Source of the DNA: a candidate division KSB1 bacterium
Lineage (GTDB): Bacteria > Zhuqueibacterota > JdFR-76 > DREG01
Assembly (NCBI GenBank): GCA_022566355.1
Contig: JADFJB010000152.1
Coordinates: 1 to 9,458 of the forward strand
Length of the DNA: 9,458 nt
Reading direction: 5' to 3'
Shown in pieces: positions 1 to 9,188 of this stretch. The first letter of the stretch is position 1, and each line of letters starts with the position of its first letter. A program made the position numbers and the translations under genes. The notes under the pieces were generated by a model. The model was not told where the DNA came from, did no database searches, and worked only from the letters and a program-made list of their open reading frames with translations.

Positions 1-86
1 TAATTTCGAAATCATAAACAAAAAACTTGACTCAAAATCAAAGTTGTTTTTCTGATAAAACATTTAATATCGGGTATGAGTATTAT

Positions 87-1373
87 ATGAATCCATTGCG
101 GTTTGTTGTGGTGGGTGTTGGGGGCTATGGCTTATTCCATTTAGAAGCGATTACATGGCTAGAGGAACAAGGTTTAGCTAATTTGGTTGGTTTGGTTGCA
201 CTCCATCGAGATCAAGCTAAATATTCTGAACTGATCAAATCTCTAAAACAAAGAAACGTAGTTATTTATTCAGATATTGATGAATTCTTTTCAAGCGGAT
301 GTAAATACACAGACATTCTTACTGTCCCTATTGGAATTCACATGCATGTCCCGGTTAGTAAAGCGGCACTGCAAGCGGGTATTCATGTGTATTGTGAGAA
401 ACCATTGGCAGCTACCGTGCAGGAGGTGGACCAGCTTATTTCTGTCCAAAGAAAAAGTGATCGAAAGATTGCCATTGGGTTTCAACACATAACCAGCTAT
501 TCGATACAGCAACTGAAAGATAGAATTTGTGACGGTCGTTTGGGAAAAGTAAAAGAGATTTCTGTGATGTGTGGTTGGCCGCGGAGCAGCCAATACTATT
601 CAAGAAACGATTGGACGGGAAAGTTGCGTTTAGGCGATAATTGGATTCTTGACAGTCCGGCAAATAGCGGCCATGCACATTATTTACTCAATATGCTATA
701 TTTATGCTCCTCTGAACCCAATAAAGCCGCAACTCCTACAAAGGTTCGTGCTGAATTGTACCGGGCAAACCACATCCCAAGTCCTGACCTGGCCCAACTT
801 TATTTTGAGACAGAAGAAGGGTGTAAAGGGAGTGCTATTTTTAGCCATAGCAACTTTCATGTAATCGAGCCACTGATGCGGATTGTCTGTGAAAATGGCG
901 ACGTAGAATGGGAAACGGACAATGGCAAAACCACAATCAAGTATCAAAATGGCAAAGAGGAGGAATTTGATAATGCAACTCATGATCATTGGCGCTTTGA
1001 CGGATTTAAAAATTTGGTTCAGTCGATTCATCAAAATACAAATCCGGTTTGTACTCCTGAAATAGCGAGATGCCACACAGTGACAATCAATGCTATGCAT
1101 GAAAGTTGCCCAAAAATCGTTCAAATTCAGGAAGATGATATTGTTGTGGTAGAAGATTGGGAAGTGTTTCCGCCAAATTCTAAAGGAACTTTTCGTAAAG
1201 TTAAGAATATGGATGAATATTTGTATGAAGCATTTAATAGAAAATGTTTTTTAAGTGAATTGGGAATTCCATGGGCAACATCTGAACATAGCCAGGTTTT
1301 TGAACTTAAGGACTACACCTGTTTTCCGGAAAATAATTTACAAGCACCCAGAGCGGAGTCGAAGGGTGATTAA
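87..1373 (+). CDS. Gfo/Idh/MocA-family NAD(P)-dependent oxidoreductase
   Basis: This is a cytoplasmic sugar or cyclitol dehydrogenase-type protein of 428 residues; the substrate is unknown. The sequence starts directly with a Rossmann beta strand and the dinucleotide motif G10-x-G12-G13-x-G15 (VVVGVGGYG). It carries the family hallmark CEKP at residues 103-106, where the lysine of EKP is known to help catalysis, and GFQ at 131-133. The segment DSPANSGHAHYLLNML (189-204) fits the conserved Asp/His region of the substrate domain. I chose ATG 87 because the Rossmann strand begins five residues later. The in-frame TTG at 27 would add 20 residues of no family character, and an in-frame stop lies at 15-17. 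The ribosome site is weak. The protein is longer than the usual 330-390 residues: about 75 residues after residue 350 form an extension, and the last residues (PRAESKG) are encoded by a dispersed repeat. It is followed after 60 nt by a symporter gene and probably shares its transcript. Family is certain; role is inferred. Confidence 0.93.
   Translation: MNPLRFVVVGVGGYGLFHLEAITWLEEQGLANLVGLVALHRDQAKYSELIKSLKQRNVVIYSDIDEFFSSGCKYTDILTVPIGIHMHVPVSKAALQAGIHVYCEKPLAATVQEVDQLISVQRKSDRKIAIGFQHITSYSIQQLKDRICDGRLGKVKEISVMCGWPRSSQYYSRNDWTGKLRLGDNWILDSPANSGHAHYLLNMLYLCSSEPNKAATPTKVRAELYRANHIPSPDLAQLYFETEEGCKGSAIFSHSNFHVIEPLMRIVCENGDVEWETDNGKTTIKYQNGKEEEFDNATHDHWRFDGFKNLVQSIHQNTNPVCTPEIARCHTVTINAMHESCPKIVQIQEDDIVVVEDWEVFPPNSKGTFRKVKNMDEYLYEAFNRKCFLSELGIPWATSEHSQVFELKDYTCFPENNLQAPRAESKGD
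1345..1368. repeat. Dispersed 'GAGCGGAGTCGAAGGG' repeat overlapping the 3' end of the oxidoreductase gene
   Basis: A 24-bp imperfect palindrome with outer arms CACCC and GGGTG and core CAGAGCGGAGTCGAAGGG. I recognise the core as a short element scattered through many environmental FCB-group genomes; in another frame it reads as the characteristic peptide PERSRRV. Here it lies inside the coding frame and supplies residues 421-427 of the oxidoreductase, three nucleotides before its TAA stop. The recurrence elsewhere is from memory and cannot be tested within this window. Confidence 0.6.
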
Positions 1374-1433: not shown

Positions 1434-3545
1434 ATGCAAATATTAGGACTTCATATTATCGATGTCCTTTTGATACTCCTTTATTTTGTCGCCATGATTT
1501 GGATCGGCAAGCGATTACGCGTTAGGATGAAGAATACCGAAGATTACTTTCTTGCCGGCCGGAAAATGGGCCGTATGTACCAGTTCTTCTTAAATTTTGG
1601 CGCTTCCACCGACGCCAGCCAGGCGGCAGCAGTCTCTCGTGAAATATACCGCCAGGGTATCGCCGGCATGTGGATTCAATATATTGTTTTATTCCTCACA
1701 CCATTCTATTGGTTCACAGCCATGTTGTTTCGGCGCTCACGACTCATGACTATTGGTGATTTTTTCACAGAACGTTTCGAAAGCAAATCCCTGGGAGCGG
1801 CATTTGCATTGTTTACTATTGTAACGACTCTCATCGGAAGTGGGGTGGGTTTTATGGTTGCTGCTAAGACTTTTATTGCATTAACTCCAAAACCTGTGAA
1901 TGAATTTACCACCGAAGAACGGTTGAGCGTGGAGCAATATAATGAATTCCGTGGGCTGAAGCAGCAGTATGGTGCAGGAAATCTTGCTGAAGAGGATCGG
2001 GATCGATTCGAAGAGTTAAACAGCCTGGACAGCCAGGGCAAATTGCATGCTTTTATTTCTTATGTCAAACCAGTCTATTTTTATTTTATTTATGGTGGCC
2101 TTGTTTGTATTTATGTGGTACTTGGTGGATTTGCAGCAGCTGCCATAACGGACATAATTCAAGGAGTTTTGATAGTCCTCTTTTCCTCCATACTAATTCC
2201 CTTCGGACTTATGGCCATCGGCGGATTTAAAGGATTGCATGCCTCTGTACCGGAACATATGTTTTGGTTGTTTGGCGCAGAAGCATTGAGTGAGTACGCC
2301 TGGTATACCATTGGCGCCATGGCTTTTGCTAACCTGGTTTCGATTGTTGCGGTTGCAGGGAATATGCAGGTAAGCGGTTCTGCAGTGAATGAAAGCAGCG
2401 CTCGATTTGGGATGATCGGTGGAATGATGTTTAAGCGCTTTATCATGATATTTTGGGCAATGGCAGGTTTGCTCGCGATTGGCCTTTATTCCGGCCAGTT
2501 GAACGATCCCGATCTTATCTGGGGTTACATGACTAAACAATTGTTAGGTCCGGGGTTTATCGGAATTATGATGATAGGCGTATTGGCTGCAAATATGTCA
2601 TCCCTCGATGTACAATCGGTTTCACTTTCAGCACTTTTTGTGAATCAAGTATATAAACCTTTAACCGGCCAAAAGGATGAAAAGCACTATATCAATATTG
2701 GACGTATTGTTGTTGTGATAACAATTTTTGGCGGGATAGGGATGGCTCTTTATATCTCGAATTTGCTGGAGCTATTTAAATATTTTATCTCGTTGCCTGC
2801 CATTTTCGGTGCACCCATATGGCTTGGGTTTGTCTGGAGAAGGCTCAGTAAATCTGCTGTTGCCGTACAGATAGCTATTTCATTCCTAATCATCGCAATC
2901 ATTCCGAATCTCTTTCAATCCTGGAACACCGCCAGAACTTATGAGCCCTTTCTAAAACAAACTCTCGAGCGTCAATTAGTCTTTGTGACAAAAGCTTTGA
3001 GTCCGGATGTCGAACAAGGTCTTGCAGCTCAAGTAGGTGAGGAAATATCGAAAGTAAGAATGATACCTTCATACCCTGTTTATTTTAATCGAATTGCTCG
3101 TGAAAATCCTGATGATCCGAATTCCCGGTTGATTGGCTTTGGACGTTTCAATGCAGAATTGTGGATTTTGAGTCTGGTGGGAATCGATTTTAGTGGTTTT
3201 AGCAAAGCCCAGCTGGTTGCTGTTCGCTTTCTTTTCGATGGCCTATTTCCATTTATTTTGCTTATAATCCTGAGCTATTTTACCAGGCCGGCCAGCAAAA
3301 AACGGTTGGATTATTTTTTTGCGAAGATTCATACCCCGGTTCAAGGTACTCCGGAAGAGGATATCATTACAATTAAAGAGAATGCAAAAAATATTTCGAA
3401 GTTTGATTCAAGAAAACTGTTTCCACGAACCCAATGGGAATTTCACAAACCACAAAAGATGGACTATATCGGATTCTTTGGCACCTGGGTTTTAGTAGGG
3501 ATCATACTTGTTTTATTGTGGCTGATGGTCAACGTAGGCGCTTAG
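1434..3545 (+). CDS. Sodium:solute symporter (SSS family) with two large hydrophilic insertions
   Basis: An inner-membrane transporter of 703 residues that should couple Na+ entry to solute uptake. Family marks are the N-terminal first helix (8-26), DYFLAGRKM at 37-45, TIGDFFTERF at 106-115, the signature region GGFAAAAITDIIQG at 231-244, and AANMSSLD at 385-392, corresponding to the broken-helix Na+ site region. I see about 14 hydrophobic segments: roughly 8-26, 48-66, 76-98, 120-150, 209-232, 237-262, 289-311, 336-354, 372-392, 422-446, 449-469, 476-494, 600-617 and 678-700. The protein is clearly longer than the roughly 500-residue norm. A charged, probably helical insert occupies about 152-206 and a second hydrophilic stretch about 495-595, before two further C-terminal helices. 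The start is supported by GAGGAA at 1422. Placement between an oxidoreductase and a glycosidase-like gene suggests a sugar, uronate or small glycoside substrate; this is inferred, as specificity cannot be read from SSS sequences. Confidence 0.95.
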   Translation: MQILGLHIIDVLLILLYFVAMIWIGKRLRVRMKNTEDYFLAGRKMGRMYQFFLNFGASTDASQAAAVSREIYRQGIAGMWIQYIVLFLTPFYWFTAMLFRRSRLMTIGDFFTERFESKSLGAAFALFTIVTTLIGSGVGFMVAAKTFIALTPKPVNEFTTEERLSVEQYNEFRGLKQQYGAGNLAEEDRDRFEELNSLDSQGKLHAFISYVKPVYFYFIYGGLVCIYVVLGGFAAAAITDIIQGVLIVLFSSILIPFGLMAIGGFKGLHASVPEHMFWLFGAEALSEYAWYTIGAMAFANLVSIVAVAGNMQVSGSAVNESSARFGMIGGMMFKRFIMIFWAMAGLLAIGLYSGQLNDPDLIWGYMTKQLLGPGFIGIMMIGVLAANMSSLDVQSVSLSALFVNQVYKPLTGQKDEKHYINIGRIVVVITIFGGIGMALYISNLLELFKYFISLPAIFGAPIWLGFVWRRLSKSAVAVQIAISFLIIAIIPNLFQSWNTARTYEPFLKQTLERQLVFVTKALSPDVEQGLAAQVGEEISKVRMIPSYPVYFNRIARENPDDPNSRLIGFGRFNAELWILSLVGIDFSGFSKAQLVAVRFLFDGLFPFILLIILSYFTRPASKKRLDYFFAKIHTPVQGTPEEDIITIKENAKNISKFDSRKLFPRTQWEFHKPQKMDYIGFFGTWVLVGIILVLLWLMVNVGA

Positions 3546-3610: not shown

Positions 3611-3661
3611 GTTGTGGTGTCATTCAGGAGGCTGCGTCTTGAGCTTGTCGAAGGGAATCTG
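3611..3661. repeat. Dispersed 'TTGAGCTTGTCGAAGGG' repeat
   Basis: The core TTGAGCTTGTCGAAGGG is at 3639-3655. Upstream, GTCATTCAGGAGG (3619-3631) is the other part of a composite element I know as a frequent intergenic repeat of the form GTCATTC...GAGCTTGTCGAAGG...AATCT in environmental bacterial genomes. It shares the GTCGAAGGG end with the repeat at 1345-1368, suggesting related families. The boundaries are estimates. Confidence 0.55.
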
Positions 3662-3709: not shown

Positions 3710-6016
3710 GTGACAATTGCAGAAGCTTTGCATAAAACCAAAATAATCAGGATACCTTCTAATCCTTTGCCTGTTGAGGAAACCAGCGCAAGTGAAATTC
3801 GACATATTTTCAAACTTGAGATTAAATTACATGACTTCCATTTTAACCAATCGGGAGTTTTCAAAATGGCTGTTGCGGGGAATGCTGATTTCCCAATCGA
3901 CCAAATTCAAGAGTATGCTCCAGAAGAAAAACAGTGGGGCTACTTCAGGATAGATTTGGATGGGTCAGGTGAATTGATCGTGTCGCATCCGTCATTGTTG
4001 TATGCCTATACTACCCGTTTGCTTGAAGAATGGCTGAATCAGCCGGTTTCTTCTTTTGAAGAGGGAACATATTTCCAGACTGCCTTTCGCTGGCATCGCC
4101 CGCTGTTTGATTATCTATTGACCCAAACCTGGCGAACAGCCCGAAATTTTGATGCCGGGGAGCACATCAAAGAATTGGCCAGATCAGGCTATACACATTT
4201 AGAAGTAAATGGCTTGGCCTCACCTGAGCCGCTTGAAGATTCCGTTCCCGGTGAATTCTATTCTCAATTTTATTCTTATTGTTTGGCGTTGGATCAATAT
4301 GTTTGTAGTGACTTGAACAAAGGTATTTATCCTGAAGACTATTTAGCCGCCAACTTAAACCTGTTGAAGGAATATGCACAGCTTGGTCGTAAGTATGGCC
4401 TGGAGCCCGGAATCCTCTGTTTTGAACCGAGAACCGTTCCGGAAAAACTTCTGCAAAAATATCCAACTTTGCGAGGCGCCCGGGTGGACCATCCTTTTCG
4501 CAGCCGGTTACCGCGCTACACACTCACGATTGCCCATCCTCTTGTCCAAAATCATTACAAAGAAATGATCAGGAAATTATTGCGGGAAGTTCCTGAATTA
4601 GCATACATGAGTATCTGGAGTAATGACAGTGGAGCAGGATTTGAGTATACCAGTTCACTCTATGTCGGAAGAAATGGCGGTCCTTATTTGATTCGTGAAT
4701 GGCGCAACCATGAACAGATCGCAGAGGCTGCGGGGAAAAATATTGTGCAATTTATGAAAATTTTACGGGATGCTGCATCTGAGATCAACCCAAATTTCCA
4801 TGTATCGCTGCGCCTGGAGCCGTTTAAGGATGAACATGATGTGATTATAGACCATCTCGAAGATCGACTGGATATTGAAGTTCCATCATTACTGGTGCGC
4901 GGTTACGACTTACCTTATCGCCATGACAAATATCCTGATATTTCGGGAGTGGCGGGCAGTATCCAGCATATTCATATGGATAATCAAGAGCGGGAATTGA
5001 TCAGGAAACATCAGGCAAAAGGTGTGAATTCGCATTTAATCTATTCTCATGGCAATGGCTATAATTTTGAACCATTGTTGGGTATTCCGTTTCCATGGCT
5101 GCTCCATCAAAAAATGGTGGCAATGCTGGAGAGTGGGGTGGAATATGCCGCAAATCTTGGCGGATTTACACCATCCCGGTTTGCTCCGTATCATATCAAC
5201 CAGGAAGTATCCAGGGCATTTATGTTGGATTCCGAAATTGACATTGATGAATTCATTTGGGAAAAGGCAAAGTATTGGGTGGGAGAATCAAAAGCCGATT
5301 TTCTTGTCGATATTTGGCGTCAGGCGGAAGAAGCGATTCGCTGGCTTCCGCCATTGCCATTATATTCGCATTTTGGTTTTGTCTGGCTGCGCGTCTGGGT
5401 ACGCCCAATTGTTCCGAACCTACATGCTGTTCCCGAACAGGATAGAAAATATTATGAAAACTTTATGGTGAGCTCAGCTAACAATACCAACCTGGTGGAT
5501 TTGGGTCGGGATGTCTTGTTCGATCTGATCACACAAGAATATGGCGAAAAATTTGTCCAGCGTGTTGATGAGAATGTTATCGGTAAACTTAACGAAGCAA
5601 TCGGCTTGGCGGAAAAAGTAGCAGGAAACTCTTCATTGTCGGACAATTCTCGCCAGGTTTTTATCGATCAAGGAGATCGACTTTGTGCCTTGAAATGTTG
5701 GGTTGCTACATTACGAAGTGTAGCTGCATGGGTAACCGGAGTTTATGGTTTCCTGGCTGCTGATTCCAACGAACAAAAAAACACCATGCAAGATTTTCTC
5801 CAGGATATGATGACCAGAGAAATCCAAAATACAAAAAACCTGCTGGAATTATGGCAAAACAGCCCAGTACATTTTATGGTGATTTCGAAATCCGGTGAGA
5901 CCAGCTACATTTATGGTGAGAATTTGGGAGAGTTATTGAATCGGAAAATTGAACTTATGAGCAAATATCGGCATGTCCAACCTAGAATCGATCCTGATAT
6001 AATGTGGAAAATTTAA
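3710..6016 (+). CDS. Uncharacterised glycosidase-like protein (GH67/GH20-type architecture)
   Basis: A 768-residue protein I do not recognise as a named enzyme. It has no signal peptide or membrane segment, so it should be cytoplasmic. Residues 1-125 look like a small alpha/beta domain. SHPSLLYAYTTRLLEEW (92-108) recalls the 'LLYGVYDLLE' helix closing the N-terminal domain of GH20, GH67 and GH115 enzymes. Residues about 126-500 fit a TIM barrel: HIKELARSGYTHLEVNG (152-168), YGLEPGILCFEPR (229-241), then IWSNDSGAGFEY (302-313). That last stretch sits where GH67 alpha-glucuronidases carry an Asn-Ser-Glu-Gly acid motif, making D306 or E312 candidate catalytic acids. Other acidic or conserved-looking spots are SLRLEP (366-371), VRGYDLPYRHD (397-407) and SHGNGYNFEPLLGIPFPW (446-463). 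Residues about 505-755 are mainly helical, like the C-terminal domain of GH67. Start GTG is backed by TAGGAG. Lying after a symporter, it may hydrolyse an imported glycoside. The gene is certain, the fold moderately likely, the reaction unknown. Confidence 0.9.
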   Translation: MTIAEALHKTKIIRIPSNPLPVEETSASEIRHIFKLEIKLHDFHFNQSGVFKMAVAGNADFPIDQIQEYAPEEKQWGYFRIDLDGSGELIVSHPSLLYAYTTRLLEEWLNQPVSSFEEGTYFQTAFRWHRPLFDYLLTQTWRTARNFDAGEHIKELARSGYTHLEVNGLASPEPLEDSVPGEFYSQFYSYCLALDQYVCSDLNKGIYPEDYLAANLNLLKEYAQLGRKYGLEPGILCFEPRTVPEKLLQKYPTLRGARVDHPFRSRLPRYTLTIAHPLVQNHYKEMIRKLLREVPELAYMSIWSNDSGAGFEYTSSLYVGRNGGPYLIREWRNHEQIAEAAGKNIVQFMKILRDAASEINPNFHVSLRLEPFKDEHDVIIDHLEDRLDIEVPSLLVRGYDLPYRHDKYPDISGVAGSIQHIHMDNQERELIRKHQAKGVNSHLIYSHGNGYNFEPLLGIPFPWLLHQKMVAMLESGVEYAANLGGFTPSRFAPYHINQEVSRAFMLDSEIDIDEFIWEKAKYWVGESKADFLVDIWRQAEEAIRWLPPLPLYSHFGFVWLRVWVRPIVPNLHAVPEQDRKYYENFMVSSANNTNLVDLGRDVLFDLITQEYGEKFVQRVDENVIGKLNEAIGLAEKVAGNSSLSDNSRQVFIDQGDRLCALKCWVATLRSVAAWVTGVYGFLAADSNEQKNTMQDFLQDMMTREIQNTKNLLELWQNSPVHFMVISKSGETSYIYGENLGELLNRKIELMSKYRHVQPRIDPDIMWKI

Positions 6017-6035: not shown

Positions 6036-6180
6036 GCCATTGGCTTTTAGCTGCTGGCCTTTAGCTTACTCTGATGAGATTGTTTAACATTTTTGTTCTA
6101 TGTTTTAACCGATCCACAATCACTTAACCATCTTTTGTTGGGATTAAATGCCAATAGCTAACAGCCAAATGCCAATAGCC
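6036..6180. repeat. Imperfect inverted pair of AGCTA/GCCAAT-type repeats
   Basis: The left arm, 6036-6066, read on the minus strand contains AGCTAAAGGCCAGCAGC and AAAAGCCAATGGC. The right arm, 6146-6180, carries the 13-bp sequence AAATGCCAATAGC twice (6146-6158 and 6167-6179), separated by TAACAGCC. The two arms are similar in opposite orientation and could pair imperfectly across about 80 nt. They resemble low-complexity 'AGCTA..AGCCA' intergenic repeats common in FCB-group genomes. A role in ending transcription from the glycosidase-like gene is possible but not shown. Confidence 0.5.
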
Positions 6181-6392: not shown

Positions 6393-7151
6393 ATGATGGA
6401 TCAAAGCTTACCTGACAAAGCTGCAACGGTGCAATTATTTCATACCTGCCTGATCAATGAATTTTATCCCGAGGTTGGCATGGCAGTAGTCCATATTCTC
6501 GAACGGCTCGGAATCCGGGTTGAAGTTCCCTTAGATCAAACTTGTTGCGGACAACCTGCTTACAACTCCGGTTTTTTGGAGGAGACTAAGAAAGTGGCGG
6601 TCAAAAACCTGGAAGTCCTGTCCAGCACCGAAGGAGCAATCATTATTCCATCAGGTTCCTGTGGCGATATGATCATCCACCAATACCGTATCCTTTTTGC
6701 CGAAAACCCAGATCTTCTCAAAAAAGTAGATAAAGTCTCCCGGCGCTGCTATGAGTTTAGCCAATTTTTGGTGGATGTTCTGGGCATCACCGATTTAGGA
6801 GCCAGATTGAAGGCAAGGGGAGCATACCATCCGTCTTGTCATCTTTTGCGTGGACTTAAAATTAAAGATCAGCCAAAAATACTGCTTGAAAATATCGCAG
6901 AACTTGAGATGGTTGAATTTGAAGATCCGGAAGAATGCTGCGGGTTTGGCGGGATGTTTTCTATTAAGAATCCCGAAATATCCGGTCGAATGATGGACAA
7001 TAAGATCAGCAACTTGCAAGCAAGCAAAGTCGATATGGTAATCAGTTGCGATATGGGCTGCCTGATGCACCTGGAAGGGGGGCTGCATCGCAAAGGCTCT
7101 CAGATTCGAGTGCGCCATCTTGCCCAGGTCCTTGATAGCGGGGTCGATTGA
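6393..7151 (+). CDS. lutA: L-lactate oxidation iron-sulfur protein LutA (LldE/YkgE)
   Basis: A 252-residue cytoplasmic subunit of the LutABC complex that oxidises L-lactate to pyruvate. It has two CCG (cysteine-rich) domains. The first has HTC (C19), CCGQPAYNSG (C51, C52) and SGSC (C90). The second has HPSCH (C149), ECCGFGGMFS (C182, C183) and CDMGCLMHLEGG (C219, C223). FYPEVG at 24-29 and GGMFSIKNPEISG at 186-198 are characteristic of this family rather than of other CCG proteins such as GlcF or HdrB. Length matches the usual 240-250 residues. Two adjacent ATGs (6393 and 6396) are equally possible starts, with no strong ribosome site before them. The stop codon overlaps the lutB ATG by one base (TGATG), implying coupled translation. 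Confidence 0.95.
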   Translation: MMDQSLPDKAATVQLFHTCLINEFYPEVGMAVVHILERLGIRVEVPLDQTCCGQPAYNSGFLEETKKVAVKNLEVLSSTEGAIIIPSGSCGDMIIHQYRILFAENPDLLKKVDKVSRRCYEFSQFLVDVLGITDLGARLKARGAYHPSCHLLRGLKIKDQPKILLENIAELEMVEFEDPEECCGFGGMFSIKNPEISGRMMDNKISNLQASKVDMVISCDMGCLMHLEGGLHRKGSQIRVRHLAQVLDSGVD

Positions 7152-8551
7152 TGTCACACTTTTCAGACCGGGTTGACAAAGCTCTTGCGGATGACAATCT
7201 TAGTGAAGCGCTTAAAAAGGCGACGTCGCAACTGGTTTCCAGGCGATCGACAGCGTTCTCTTCTCTTGAAGATGCCGAGAATCTGAGGGACATTGCCCGC
7301 AATACCAAAATGAAAATCTTACATAATCTAGAAGACAATCTGCTGAAATTTGAGAAAAGTCTACAAAAAAATGGTTCTCATGTCCACTGGGCGAAGGATG
7401 CAGAAGAGGCAAATAATGTAGTCATAGAAATTGCCCAAAAACAGGCTGTAAAGAAGATTGTAAAATCCAAGTCCATGTTGTCGGAAGAAATTCACCTGAA
7501 TACAGCATTGATTAAAGCCGGTATGCAGGTTGTGGAAACGGACCTGGGTGAATACATCGTCCAACTTGCCGGAGATAAGCCATCGCACATCATCGCACCT
7601 ATCATTCATATGACTCGTGAGGATGTCGGCAATCTCATGCATGACCGGTTATCGGTACCTTTTTCTGACGAGCCGGAAGTACTGACTCGAATTGCCAGGC
7701 GAAAGCTCCGCCAGGAATTTCTCGATGCGGATATGGGTATTACCGGAGCGAATTTTGGCGTGGTTGAAACCGGCAGTATTTGTCTTGTCACAAATGAAGG
7801 AAACGCCCGCATGGTCACCACGCTGCCTAAAATCCATGTCGTTTTGATCGGAATCGAAAAATTGGTAGCCACGTTTGAGGATCTTAATCGTTTTTTAAAA
7901 TTATTAGCACGTTCGGCTACCGGACAAAAACTTTCGGTTTATACATCGATCATTCAAGGACCCGGGAAAGGAACTGAAACCGGACCGGAAGAAGTTCATG
8001 TTGTGCTTGTAGATAATGGCCGCAGTGGAATGCTTGGTGGAGACTTAGCTGAGAGTCTCGCATGTATTCGATGTGGCGCTTGTCTGAATGTCTGTCCGAT
8101 CTATAAAAACATTGGCGGCCATGCTTATGGCGATACTTACGCCGGTCCAATTGGATCTATCATCACACCAGGACTCAGGGGATTGGCACAATGGCATGAA
8201 CTACCTGCAGCCAGTACACTTTGTGGCGCATGTAAAGAAGTATGTCCAATACGAATTGATATTCCCAAAATGCTGTTGAAATTGCGTCAAGTCACGCCGC
8301 CAAAGGTCAAAGCTTCAATAAGCTTAAGAATGGCGATAAAATGCTTTGCTGTGATTGCTGGTATCCCAAAAGTATATAAAGGATTTACTGCATTTGGAAG
8401 CAGGTTACTGAGATTTCTTGGCTCAAAAAGTTGGCTAACAAATAATATTCCTTTACTTGACCGATGGACTAAAGTTCGTGATTTCAAGACACCGGCAAAA
8501 AAATCATTTCAAAGGATGTGGCAAGAGAAGATTGCTAAAGATGGAAAATAA
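7151..8551 (+). CDS. lutB: L-lactate oxidation iron-sulfur protein LutB (LldF/YkgF)
   Basis: A 466-residue LUD-domain plus ferredoxin-type subunit of the lactate oxidation complex. Residues about 65-290 form the LUD domain, with GITGANFGVVETGSICLVTNEGN (196-218, shown by its key residues G199, E206, G208, E216) and a glycine-rich IQGPGKGTETGPEE stretch (268-281). A first [4Fe-4S] motif C305-x2-C308-x2-C311-x3-C315-P is followed by LCGACKEVCP with C358, C361 and C365, the form usual in this family. The C-terminal 90 residues are basic and partly hydrophobic, as in other LutB proteins. I chose ATG 7151, overlapping the lutA stop; the TTG at 7148 is an alternative one codon earlier. A GGGG run seven bases upstream may act as a weak ribosome site. 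The 3' end overlaps lutC by 11 nt. Confidence 0.96.
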   Translation: MSHFSDRVDKALADDNLSEALKKATSQLVSRRSTAFSSLEDAENLRDIARNTKMKILHNLEDNLLKFEKSLQKNGSHVHWAKDAEEANNVVIEIAQKQAVKKIVKSKSMLSEEIHLNTALIKAGMQVVETDLGEYIVQLAGDKPSHIIAPIIHMTREDVGNLMHDRLSVPFSDEPEVLTRIARRKLRQEFLDADMGITGANFGVVETGSICLVTNEGNARMVTTLPKIHVVLIGIEKLVATFEDLNRFLKLLARSATGQKLSVYTSIIQGPGKGTETGPEEVHVVLVDNGRSGMLGGDLAESLACIRCGACLNVCPIYKNIGGHAYGDTYAGPIGSIITPGLRGLAQWHELPAASTLCGACKEVCPIRIDIPKMLLKLRQVTPPKVKASISLRMAIKCFAVIAGIPKVYKGFTAFGSRLLRFLGSKSWLTNNIPLLDRWTKVRDFKTPAKKSFQRMWQEKIAKDGK

Positions 8552-9188
8552 ACTTTCAAAATCCAAAGAGGTTATTCTTACGCGTGTTCGAGAATCTCAA
8601 GTCTTGGCCCGACTACCGGAAATAATGCCGGAATCGACTGATGGTTTAAAATCTCACCACCAACCAGAATCAGATCTCCTGAATAGTTTACAAAAGGAAT
8701 TTGATTTGCTCGGTGTGGAGACTTATGTAGAAAAGAATCAGAAAGCTGTATGCAAGCGGCTGCGAAACCTTTTGCAAGACAAATCCGTCCTTAGCTGGAA
8801 CTTAGACAATTTACCTTATGATGCCGGAACTGTTCTGCAAAGCCGGAATGTTTATTTCGAAAGGGATGATAAAATAATACAAGCAAGTGCAGATATTGGG
8901 CTGACAGGCTGCGATGCGGCAATTGCCGAAACCGGCTCTCTTGTGCTTCTTTCAGGAGAAGGGAAACCGCGTACGGCCTCTCTGTTGCCTTTTGAGCATA
9001 TAGCCCTAATCCGCCAGAGTGACATTTATTTCACGATGAGTGATTTTTTCGATAAGAAAGGAAAAGAGGTAAGCCAGGCTTCCTGCATTGATATCATAAC
9101 CGGTCCTAGCAGAACGGCAGACATCGAGCTGTCATTGACTCTTGGTGTTCATGGACCAGGGAAGGTTATTGTCGTGATCGGACCATAG
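8541..9188 (+). CDS. lutC: L-lactate utilisation protein LutC (LldG/YkgG)
   Basis: A 215-residue LUD-domain protein, the third subunit of the LutABC lactate oxidation complex. Family marks are GLTGCDAAIAETGSLVL (key residues G, D, E, G), GEGKPRTASLLPFEHIALI, and the C-terminal ITGPSRTADIELSLTLG with HGPGKV close to the end. Overall length fits the family (about 200-240 residues). ATG 8541 lies within the last codons of lutB, 11 nt of overlap, preceded by the purine-rich AAGAGAAG at 8523-8530, ten bases upstream. An in-frame ATG at 8457 would extend the protein 28 residues into lutB and is less likely, since that stretch has no family similarity and simply reads the lutB coding sequence out of frame. 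Last gene of the operon. Confidence 0.95.
   Translation: MENKLSKSKEVILTRVRESQVLARLPEIMPESTDGLKSHHQPESDLLNSLQKEFDLLGVETYVEKNQKAVCKRLRNLLQDKSVLSWNLDNLPYDAGTVLQSRNVYFERDDKIIQASADIGLTGCDAAIAETGSLVLLSGEGKPRTASLLPFEHIALIRQSDIYFTMSDFFDKKGKEVSQASCIDIITGPSRTADIELSLTLGVHGPGKVIVVIGP

Follow-up and report, generated by a model that had tools for sequence, protein, structure and literature searches.

A probable cytoplasmic glycoside hydrolase from a candidate division KSB1 bacterium, representing an unclassified GH20/GH67/GH115/GH138-like family

The window analyzed here is a DNA stretch of 9,458 nucleotides that makes up the entire contig C152 of a candidate division KSB1 genome, so the operon it contains may run past the window ends. 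All genes discussed lie on the forward strand, in the order Gfo/Idh oxidoreductase, sodium:solute symporter, a 768-aa protein, and then LutA-, LutB-, and LutC-like genes. The Gfo/Idh/MocA-type oxidoreductase gene (27..1373; PF01408, 1.7e-16; PF22725, 6.7e-07) likely has its true start at the ATG at 87, and is followed by the gene for a 703-aa sodium:solute symporter (SSF; 1434..3545; PF00474, 3.1e-21). The gene for the 768-aa glycosidase-like protein occupies 3710..6016. Downstream are genes for a LutA-like cysteine-rich (CCG) protein of L-lactate oxidation (6393..7151; PF02754, 6.9e-36), which also matches the LdhH C-terminal-part model of NCBIfam (6.8e-65, under the cut-off of that model), a LutB/LldF-family iron-sulfur protein of L-lactate oxidation (7148..8551; TIGR00273, 2.2e-150, over the cut-off), and a LutC-like LUD-domain protein (8457..9188; PF02589, 1e-28), the likely start of which is the ATG at 8541. 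In the 376-base gap 3' of the 768-aa gene, AAATGCCAATAGC occurs twice, in identical copies 21 bases apart (6146–6179). A repeat-like sequence of 17 bases at 3639 has only three occurrences in the genome when up to one mismatch is allowed. An Rfam search of the window returned no family.

The open reading frame at 3710–6016 is a genuine gene, as indicated by the ORF call, the homologues, and the structural model. It begins with GTG directly downstream of an AGGAG Shine-Dalgarno-like stretch, and full-length homologues have an equivalent start position and near-identical size. A preliminary description, made from the sequence alone, had paired this reading frame with a Na+ symporter and an oxidoreductase and had taken its product to be cytoplasmic; the PF00474 and PF01408 matches on the 5' side identify these partners, and no signal peptide is apparent in the 768-aa protein.

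The same description had found no recognizable named family, and our searches of Pfam, NCBIfam, and the PDB likewise gave no sequence match to a characterized family. Neither the 768-aa protein nor any of 40 homologues reaches a Pfam or NCBIfam cut-off, and searches of PDB chains, GH138 entries included, with phmmer and with an alignment profile yielded no sequence or profile match to the 768-aa protein. The window protein did not match PF16126 (DUF4838) or PF07488 (GH67 middle domain) at E-values up to 1, nor did it have a Pfam match to PF15979 (GH115) or PF00728 (GH20); three of the 40 relatives, all distant, matched PF16126 weakly (best 0.00088). Matches of the 768-aa protein to Barstar, NF047340, and antibodies were at chance level and were rejected. 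A six-frame search of the window genome for GH67, GH115, GH20, and DUF4838 was without match, and searches of open-licence papers retrieved no paper that names the family. Judged by sequence, the family appears to be nameless in Pfam, NCBIfam, and the PDB, and there may be a CAZy family for it that has no representative in those three resources.

The structure of the 768-aa protein was predicted with AlphaFold using 62 sequences (pLDDT 92.1, pTM 0.93), and secondary structure was assigned with DSSP. The model has three parts: an N-terminal α/β domain (3710..4084, residues ~1–125), a (β/α)8 barrel (4085..5236, residues ~126–509), and a helical C-terminal domain (5243..6013, residues ~512–768). 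The barrel is complete, with eight strands (residues 128–132, 163–165, 232–238, 299–303, 364–368, 387–391, 441–445, and 479–483) that alternate with helices, and barrel matches obtained with VIA-align fall on residues 126..510. The N-terminal domain is placed as in GH20, GH67, and DUF4838 proteins and falls within the DUF4838 profile alignment.

Foldseek comparison of the model gave GH138, GH20 (GH20C), GH67, GH115, GH89, and GH84 structures as top matches, with E-values of ~1e-14 to 1e-8. The two highest-ranked entries, 6hzf and 6hze, belong to GH138 (best E-value 1.2e-14) and align from the N- through the C-terminal domain, and the GH67 entries 1gqi and 1h41 (E ~3e-13) are within the top 10. 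Because the rmsd of the whole-chain Foldseek alignments is ~9–16 Å, these alignments secure the general architecture alone. With VIA-align, GH138 (6hzg) aligned over 580 residues at 5.1 Å (Z 16.2) and GH67 (1mqq) over 500 residues at 5.0 Å (Z 14.1); GH67, GH115, GH20, and GH89 structures generally aligned over ~500 or more residues with Z ~14–15, and the barrels of Cwp19 and PgaB over ~300 residues with Z 15–17. Since the scores are tied within the glycosidase group, the fold indicates a superfamily and not a family. The nearest fold is that of GH138 (BP0997, which targets rhamnogalacturonan II), and this likeness, at ~7–11% identity, is seen in the overall fold. The hexosaminidases of GH20, GH84, and GH89 and the GH115 enzymes fall in the same barrel group by both methods.

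Relationships to known families were further assessed by local profile–profile alignment (hhalign) of two alignments of the family (A1 and A3) against families drawn from within its phylum. DUF4838 scored a probability of 93% with A1 and 85% with A3 over ~500 columns, compared with 1.3% and 1.1% for GH67, 0.2–0.4% for GH115, and 1.4–4.6% for GH20. The DUF4838 profile itself scored 98% against GH20 and 91% against each of GH67 and GH115 (90–93% overall for these two). DUF4838 thus lies about as far from the 768-aa family as it does from GH67 and GH115, and by these profiles none of the characterized families tested is closer to the 768-aa family than DUF4838 is. The two share the N-terminal domain, the barrel, and an ND motif past strand 4, at ~15% identity in the profile alignment, and DUF4838 proteins are themselves uncharacterized. 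The family is therefore best called an unclassified member of the GH20/GH67/GH115/GH138-like superfamily and a distant relative of DUF4838. The preliminary description had noted a GH67-like order of parts (small N-terminal domain, probable TIM barrel, helical C-terminal domain) in a protein that was nonetheless not GH67 and lacked GH20 and GH115 signatures. All three parts are present in the model, and the GH67 fold among the top 10 matches, the GH67 profile probability of ~1%, the lack of Pfam matches, and the hhalign values below 5% for GH20 and GH115 agree with that view. The GH67 fold and domain order are common to GH138, GH20, GH115, and others and so are not diagnostic of GH67.

Several strongly conserved residues lie near the C-terminal ends of barrel strands. 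The SNDSGAGFE motif (4619..4645), which is at residues 304–312 as originally reported and is conserved in alignments A1 and A3, follows strand 4. D306, three residues beyond that strand, is invariant in both the main set (62/62) and a broad set (40/40), and S307 is invariant throughout the aligned sequences. E312 is present in all 62 main-set sequences and in 36 of the 40 broad-set sequences, four distant-clade members having Cys instead, whereas E370 is kept in 60/62 and 22/40, respectively, and is absent from the leader-bearing (secreted) clade and the distant clade. The expected conservation of D306, E312, and E370 thus holds for D306 and nearly so for E312, whereas E370 is retained in the main clade only; it is consequently not a universal partner of D306, and no universal acid pair is defined. 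Further main-set invariants are E239, E390, R241, R258, D260, H261, R264, and R269. Secondary structure places E239, D306, E370, and E390 at or just past the C-terminal ends of strands 3, 4, 5, and 6, so in the model they would be located at the barrel mouth. A second highly conserved motif, LYVGRNGGPYLIREW (residues 317–331, 4658..4702), holds the lowest-confidence loop of the model (319–328); this YVGRNGG loop is compatible with a mobile loop that would shut over the substrate.

The site of D306, after barrel strand 4, matches the site where GH20 and GH67 bear catalytic acids. In the profile–profile alignments, ND of NDSG aligns with ND of DUF4838, and the DUF4838 QND aligns beside the NSEG motif of GH67 and the GGDE motif of GH20. 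Via DUF4838, the catalytic-acid motif of the GH67 α-glucuronidases, which have a similar domain order, thus falls at an equivalent site, but it reads NSEG instead of NDSGAGFE. The DE pair that follows strand 4 in GH20 is missing from the 768-aa protein, which has SNDSG there.

Homologues occur in 38 of the 82 genomes of the phylum, some of which carry several copies, and the nearest relatives of the window protein are from candidate division KSB1. A scan of 84,980 species genomes based on the family alignment found 296 related loci; a single-protein query of the same collection gave no match. Eighty of the 296 loci, from KSB1, Opitutae (Verrucomicrobiota), Aminicenantes, Ignavibacteria, Rhodothermota, Kryptonia, Gemmatimonadota, and Electryoneota, were retained. 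The tree comprises a mostly leaderless main clade, a sister group of eight members with hydrophobic leaders (scored by a simple hydrophobicity scan), and a distant group of seven proteins of ~630 aa (100% support), most of which also have leaders. Side-by-side tandem copies of the gene are found at L111, L115, L117, L119, L128, L140, and L145, mostly in Opitutaceae. Two assignments probably reflect binning errors: L084 (filed as KSB1) and L085 (filed as Phycisphaerae) are contigs of equal length and content, and L159, filed as "Micrarchaeota," is an Aminicenantes-like locus.

Gene neighbors were counted within six genes of the family gene in the 80 loci after a codon-usage filter, which removed several "conserved neighbors" in high-GC Opitutaceae that were artefacts of antisense ORF calling; the loci are mutually related, and the counts are associations and not statistics. 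The most frequent neighbors were Gfo/Idh oxidoreductases (31 loci), SSF symporters (25), PhyH (21), URO-D-type proteins (20), DUF455 (20), AraC (19), SDR (18), and heparinase-like proteins (10). Overall, the sugar-related neighbors include symporters, Gfo/Idh and SDR proteins, sugar kinases, LutABC, GH78-like and heparinase-like proteins, and GH28, the last of which lies close to three members of the distant clade and to one with a leader. KSB1 operons also carry a DeoC/LacD aldolase, D-lyxose isomerase, sugar kinases, and LutAB. At least one of URO-D, B12-binding, MtaB, PhyH, and DUF455 genes is present at 40/80 loci, including one of the 14 KSB1 loci, and none is in the window.

These neighborhoods vary by phylum, and the family may act on several substrates. 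URO-D neighbors occur in Ignavibacteria/Bacteroidetes, Aminicenantes/Acidobacteriota, Gemmatimonadota, and others, with MtaB and a B12-binding protein added in seven Ignavibacteria-type loci. Six Ignavibacteria/Bacteroidetes loci (L120, L124, L125, L139, L143, and L150) have the conserved order ROK, heparinase-like, PfkB, URO-D, B12-binding protein, MtaB, family gene, glycerate kinase, and EamA transporter, a set that is a candidate methanol-type corrinoid methyltransferase system within a sugar operon. PhyH, DUF455, and AraC form the Opitutae arrangement, with a lactonase-like amidohydrolase and dehydrogenases close by. A neighbor with the fold of GH78 (α-L-rhamnosidase-like; model pLDDT 74) recurs in several phyla without a Pfam match. 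These proteins (L118:4033-5625 and relatives in L097, L100, L102, L108, L119, and L127) have 525–536 aa and 58–64% identity across phyla, and form a second unnamed family, of likely glycosidases. The heparinase-like neighbors (L125:1677-3917 and members of its cluster, as well as L037 and L038) are secreted proteins of ~747 aa without a Pfam match.

Taken with the sugar-catabolic context, the fold and the position and invariance of D306 make glycoside hydrolase the best reading, and we consider it probable that the 768-aa protein hydrolyzes glycosides in the cytoplasm and belongs to an unclassified GH20/GH67/GH115/GH138-like family. From the predicted fold, residue conservation, the absence of a family name, and the gene neighborhood, we infer hydrolysis, residue roles, substrate, and pathway. 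The most likely role would be that of a cytoplasmic exo-glycosidase acting on an imported saccharide that contains a uronic acid and/or a deoxysugar. A sugar or short saccharide would enter through the sodium symporter, and its non-reducing-end sugar would bind in the C-terminal mouth of the barrel, with the YVGRNGG loop shutting over it. D306, just past strand 4, would serve as the general acid, and E239 (after strand 3), E312, E370 (after strand 5), and E390 (in strand 6) may provide the base or ligand the substrate. The freed sugar would be oxidized by Gfo/Idh- and SDR-type dehydrogenases and then split by aldolases, part of the product ending as L-lactate to be oxidized by LutABC. Oxidative rhamnose and fucose routes end in L-lactate and pyruvate. 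LutABC and the GH78-like neighbor together suggest that the substrate contains a deoxysugar, for instance rhamnose or fucose. This sugar is likely to be partnered by a uronic acid, and relatives may deal with O-methylation as well.

A narrower form of the hydrolase reading, which we hold to be possible but clearly less probable, is that the protein is specifically an α-glycuronidase resembling GH67, GH115, and GH138, using an acid/base pair at the mouth of the barrel and targeting an α-linked glucuronic or galacturonic acid, possibly 4-O-methylated. The best folds include those of GH138 (an RG-II enzyme), GH67, and GH115, and R241, R258, R264, and R269, past strand 3, could bind a carboxylate; however, the hexosaminidase folds of GH20, GH84, and GH89 score about equally, and the substrate does not follow from the fold. 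The heparinase-like and GH28 neighbors point to uronic acid polymers, but the heparinase-like label comes from a weak heparinase II/III-type resemblance (HepC, 0.0043, NCBIfam) of proteins that have no sequence match in the PDB, and none of the window genes was recognized as a uronate-specific isomerase. A glycuronide-type substrate, as proposed in the preliminary description, is plausible. It is rather unlikely, in our estimate, that the protein founds a new GH family for glycosides whose uronic acids or deoxysugars are O-methylated, encoded in operons with dedicated demethylation. Methyl groups would then be removed by corrinoid/URO-D-type methyltransferases in anaerobic lineages and by a PhyH-type oxygenase with DUF455 in Opitutae, and it is the methyl-transfer and oxygenase neighbors in other phyla that allow this hypothesis.

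A shared barrel by itself is no proof of hydrolysis, and the family has no close homologue with known activity. Slightly less likely again than the O-methyl-sugar hypothesis is a 3-keto-glycoside lyase, whereby the Gfo/Idh protein would oxidize the sugar before the 768-aa protein cleaved it by elimination. The Gfo/Idh gene upstream in the window, its presence within six genes in 31/80 loci, and the glycoside 3-dehydrogenase among the weak NCBIfam matches of its product are consistent with such a route, but those matches are generic (~50 bits against cut-offs of 355–750), many loci have no Gfo/Idh gene near the family gene, and 3-keto-glycoside lyases are not known to have a glycosidase-barrel fold. 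Least probable is a barrel protein that has no catalytic function or catalyzes another kind of reaction, such as a sugar-binding regulator or an isomerase. The absence of a characterized homologue, a second carboxylate that is not universal, and a conserved glycine-rich loop that is not known from the listed GH families would fit such a protein, but the barrel mouth shows dense invariance over more than five phyla and the neighbors are chiefly metabolic, not regulatory.

These proteins make good candidates for carbohydrate-degrading enzymes of a new type. The family is widespread in several poorly cultured, carbohydrate-degrading phyla of sediments but nameless to annotation pipelines, so the carbohydrate repertoire of those phyla is undercounted. 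If active, the protein would be the founding member of a new CAZy family, with D306 as a ready handle for mutants. The repeated association with genes for methyl transfer and oxygenases is a concrete lead on the breakdown of O-methylated sugars and, if the O-methyl-sugar hypothesis is true, would account for the consumption of methylated sugars from plant and algal polymers.
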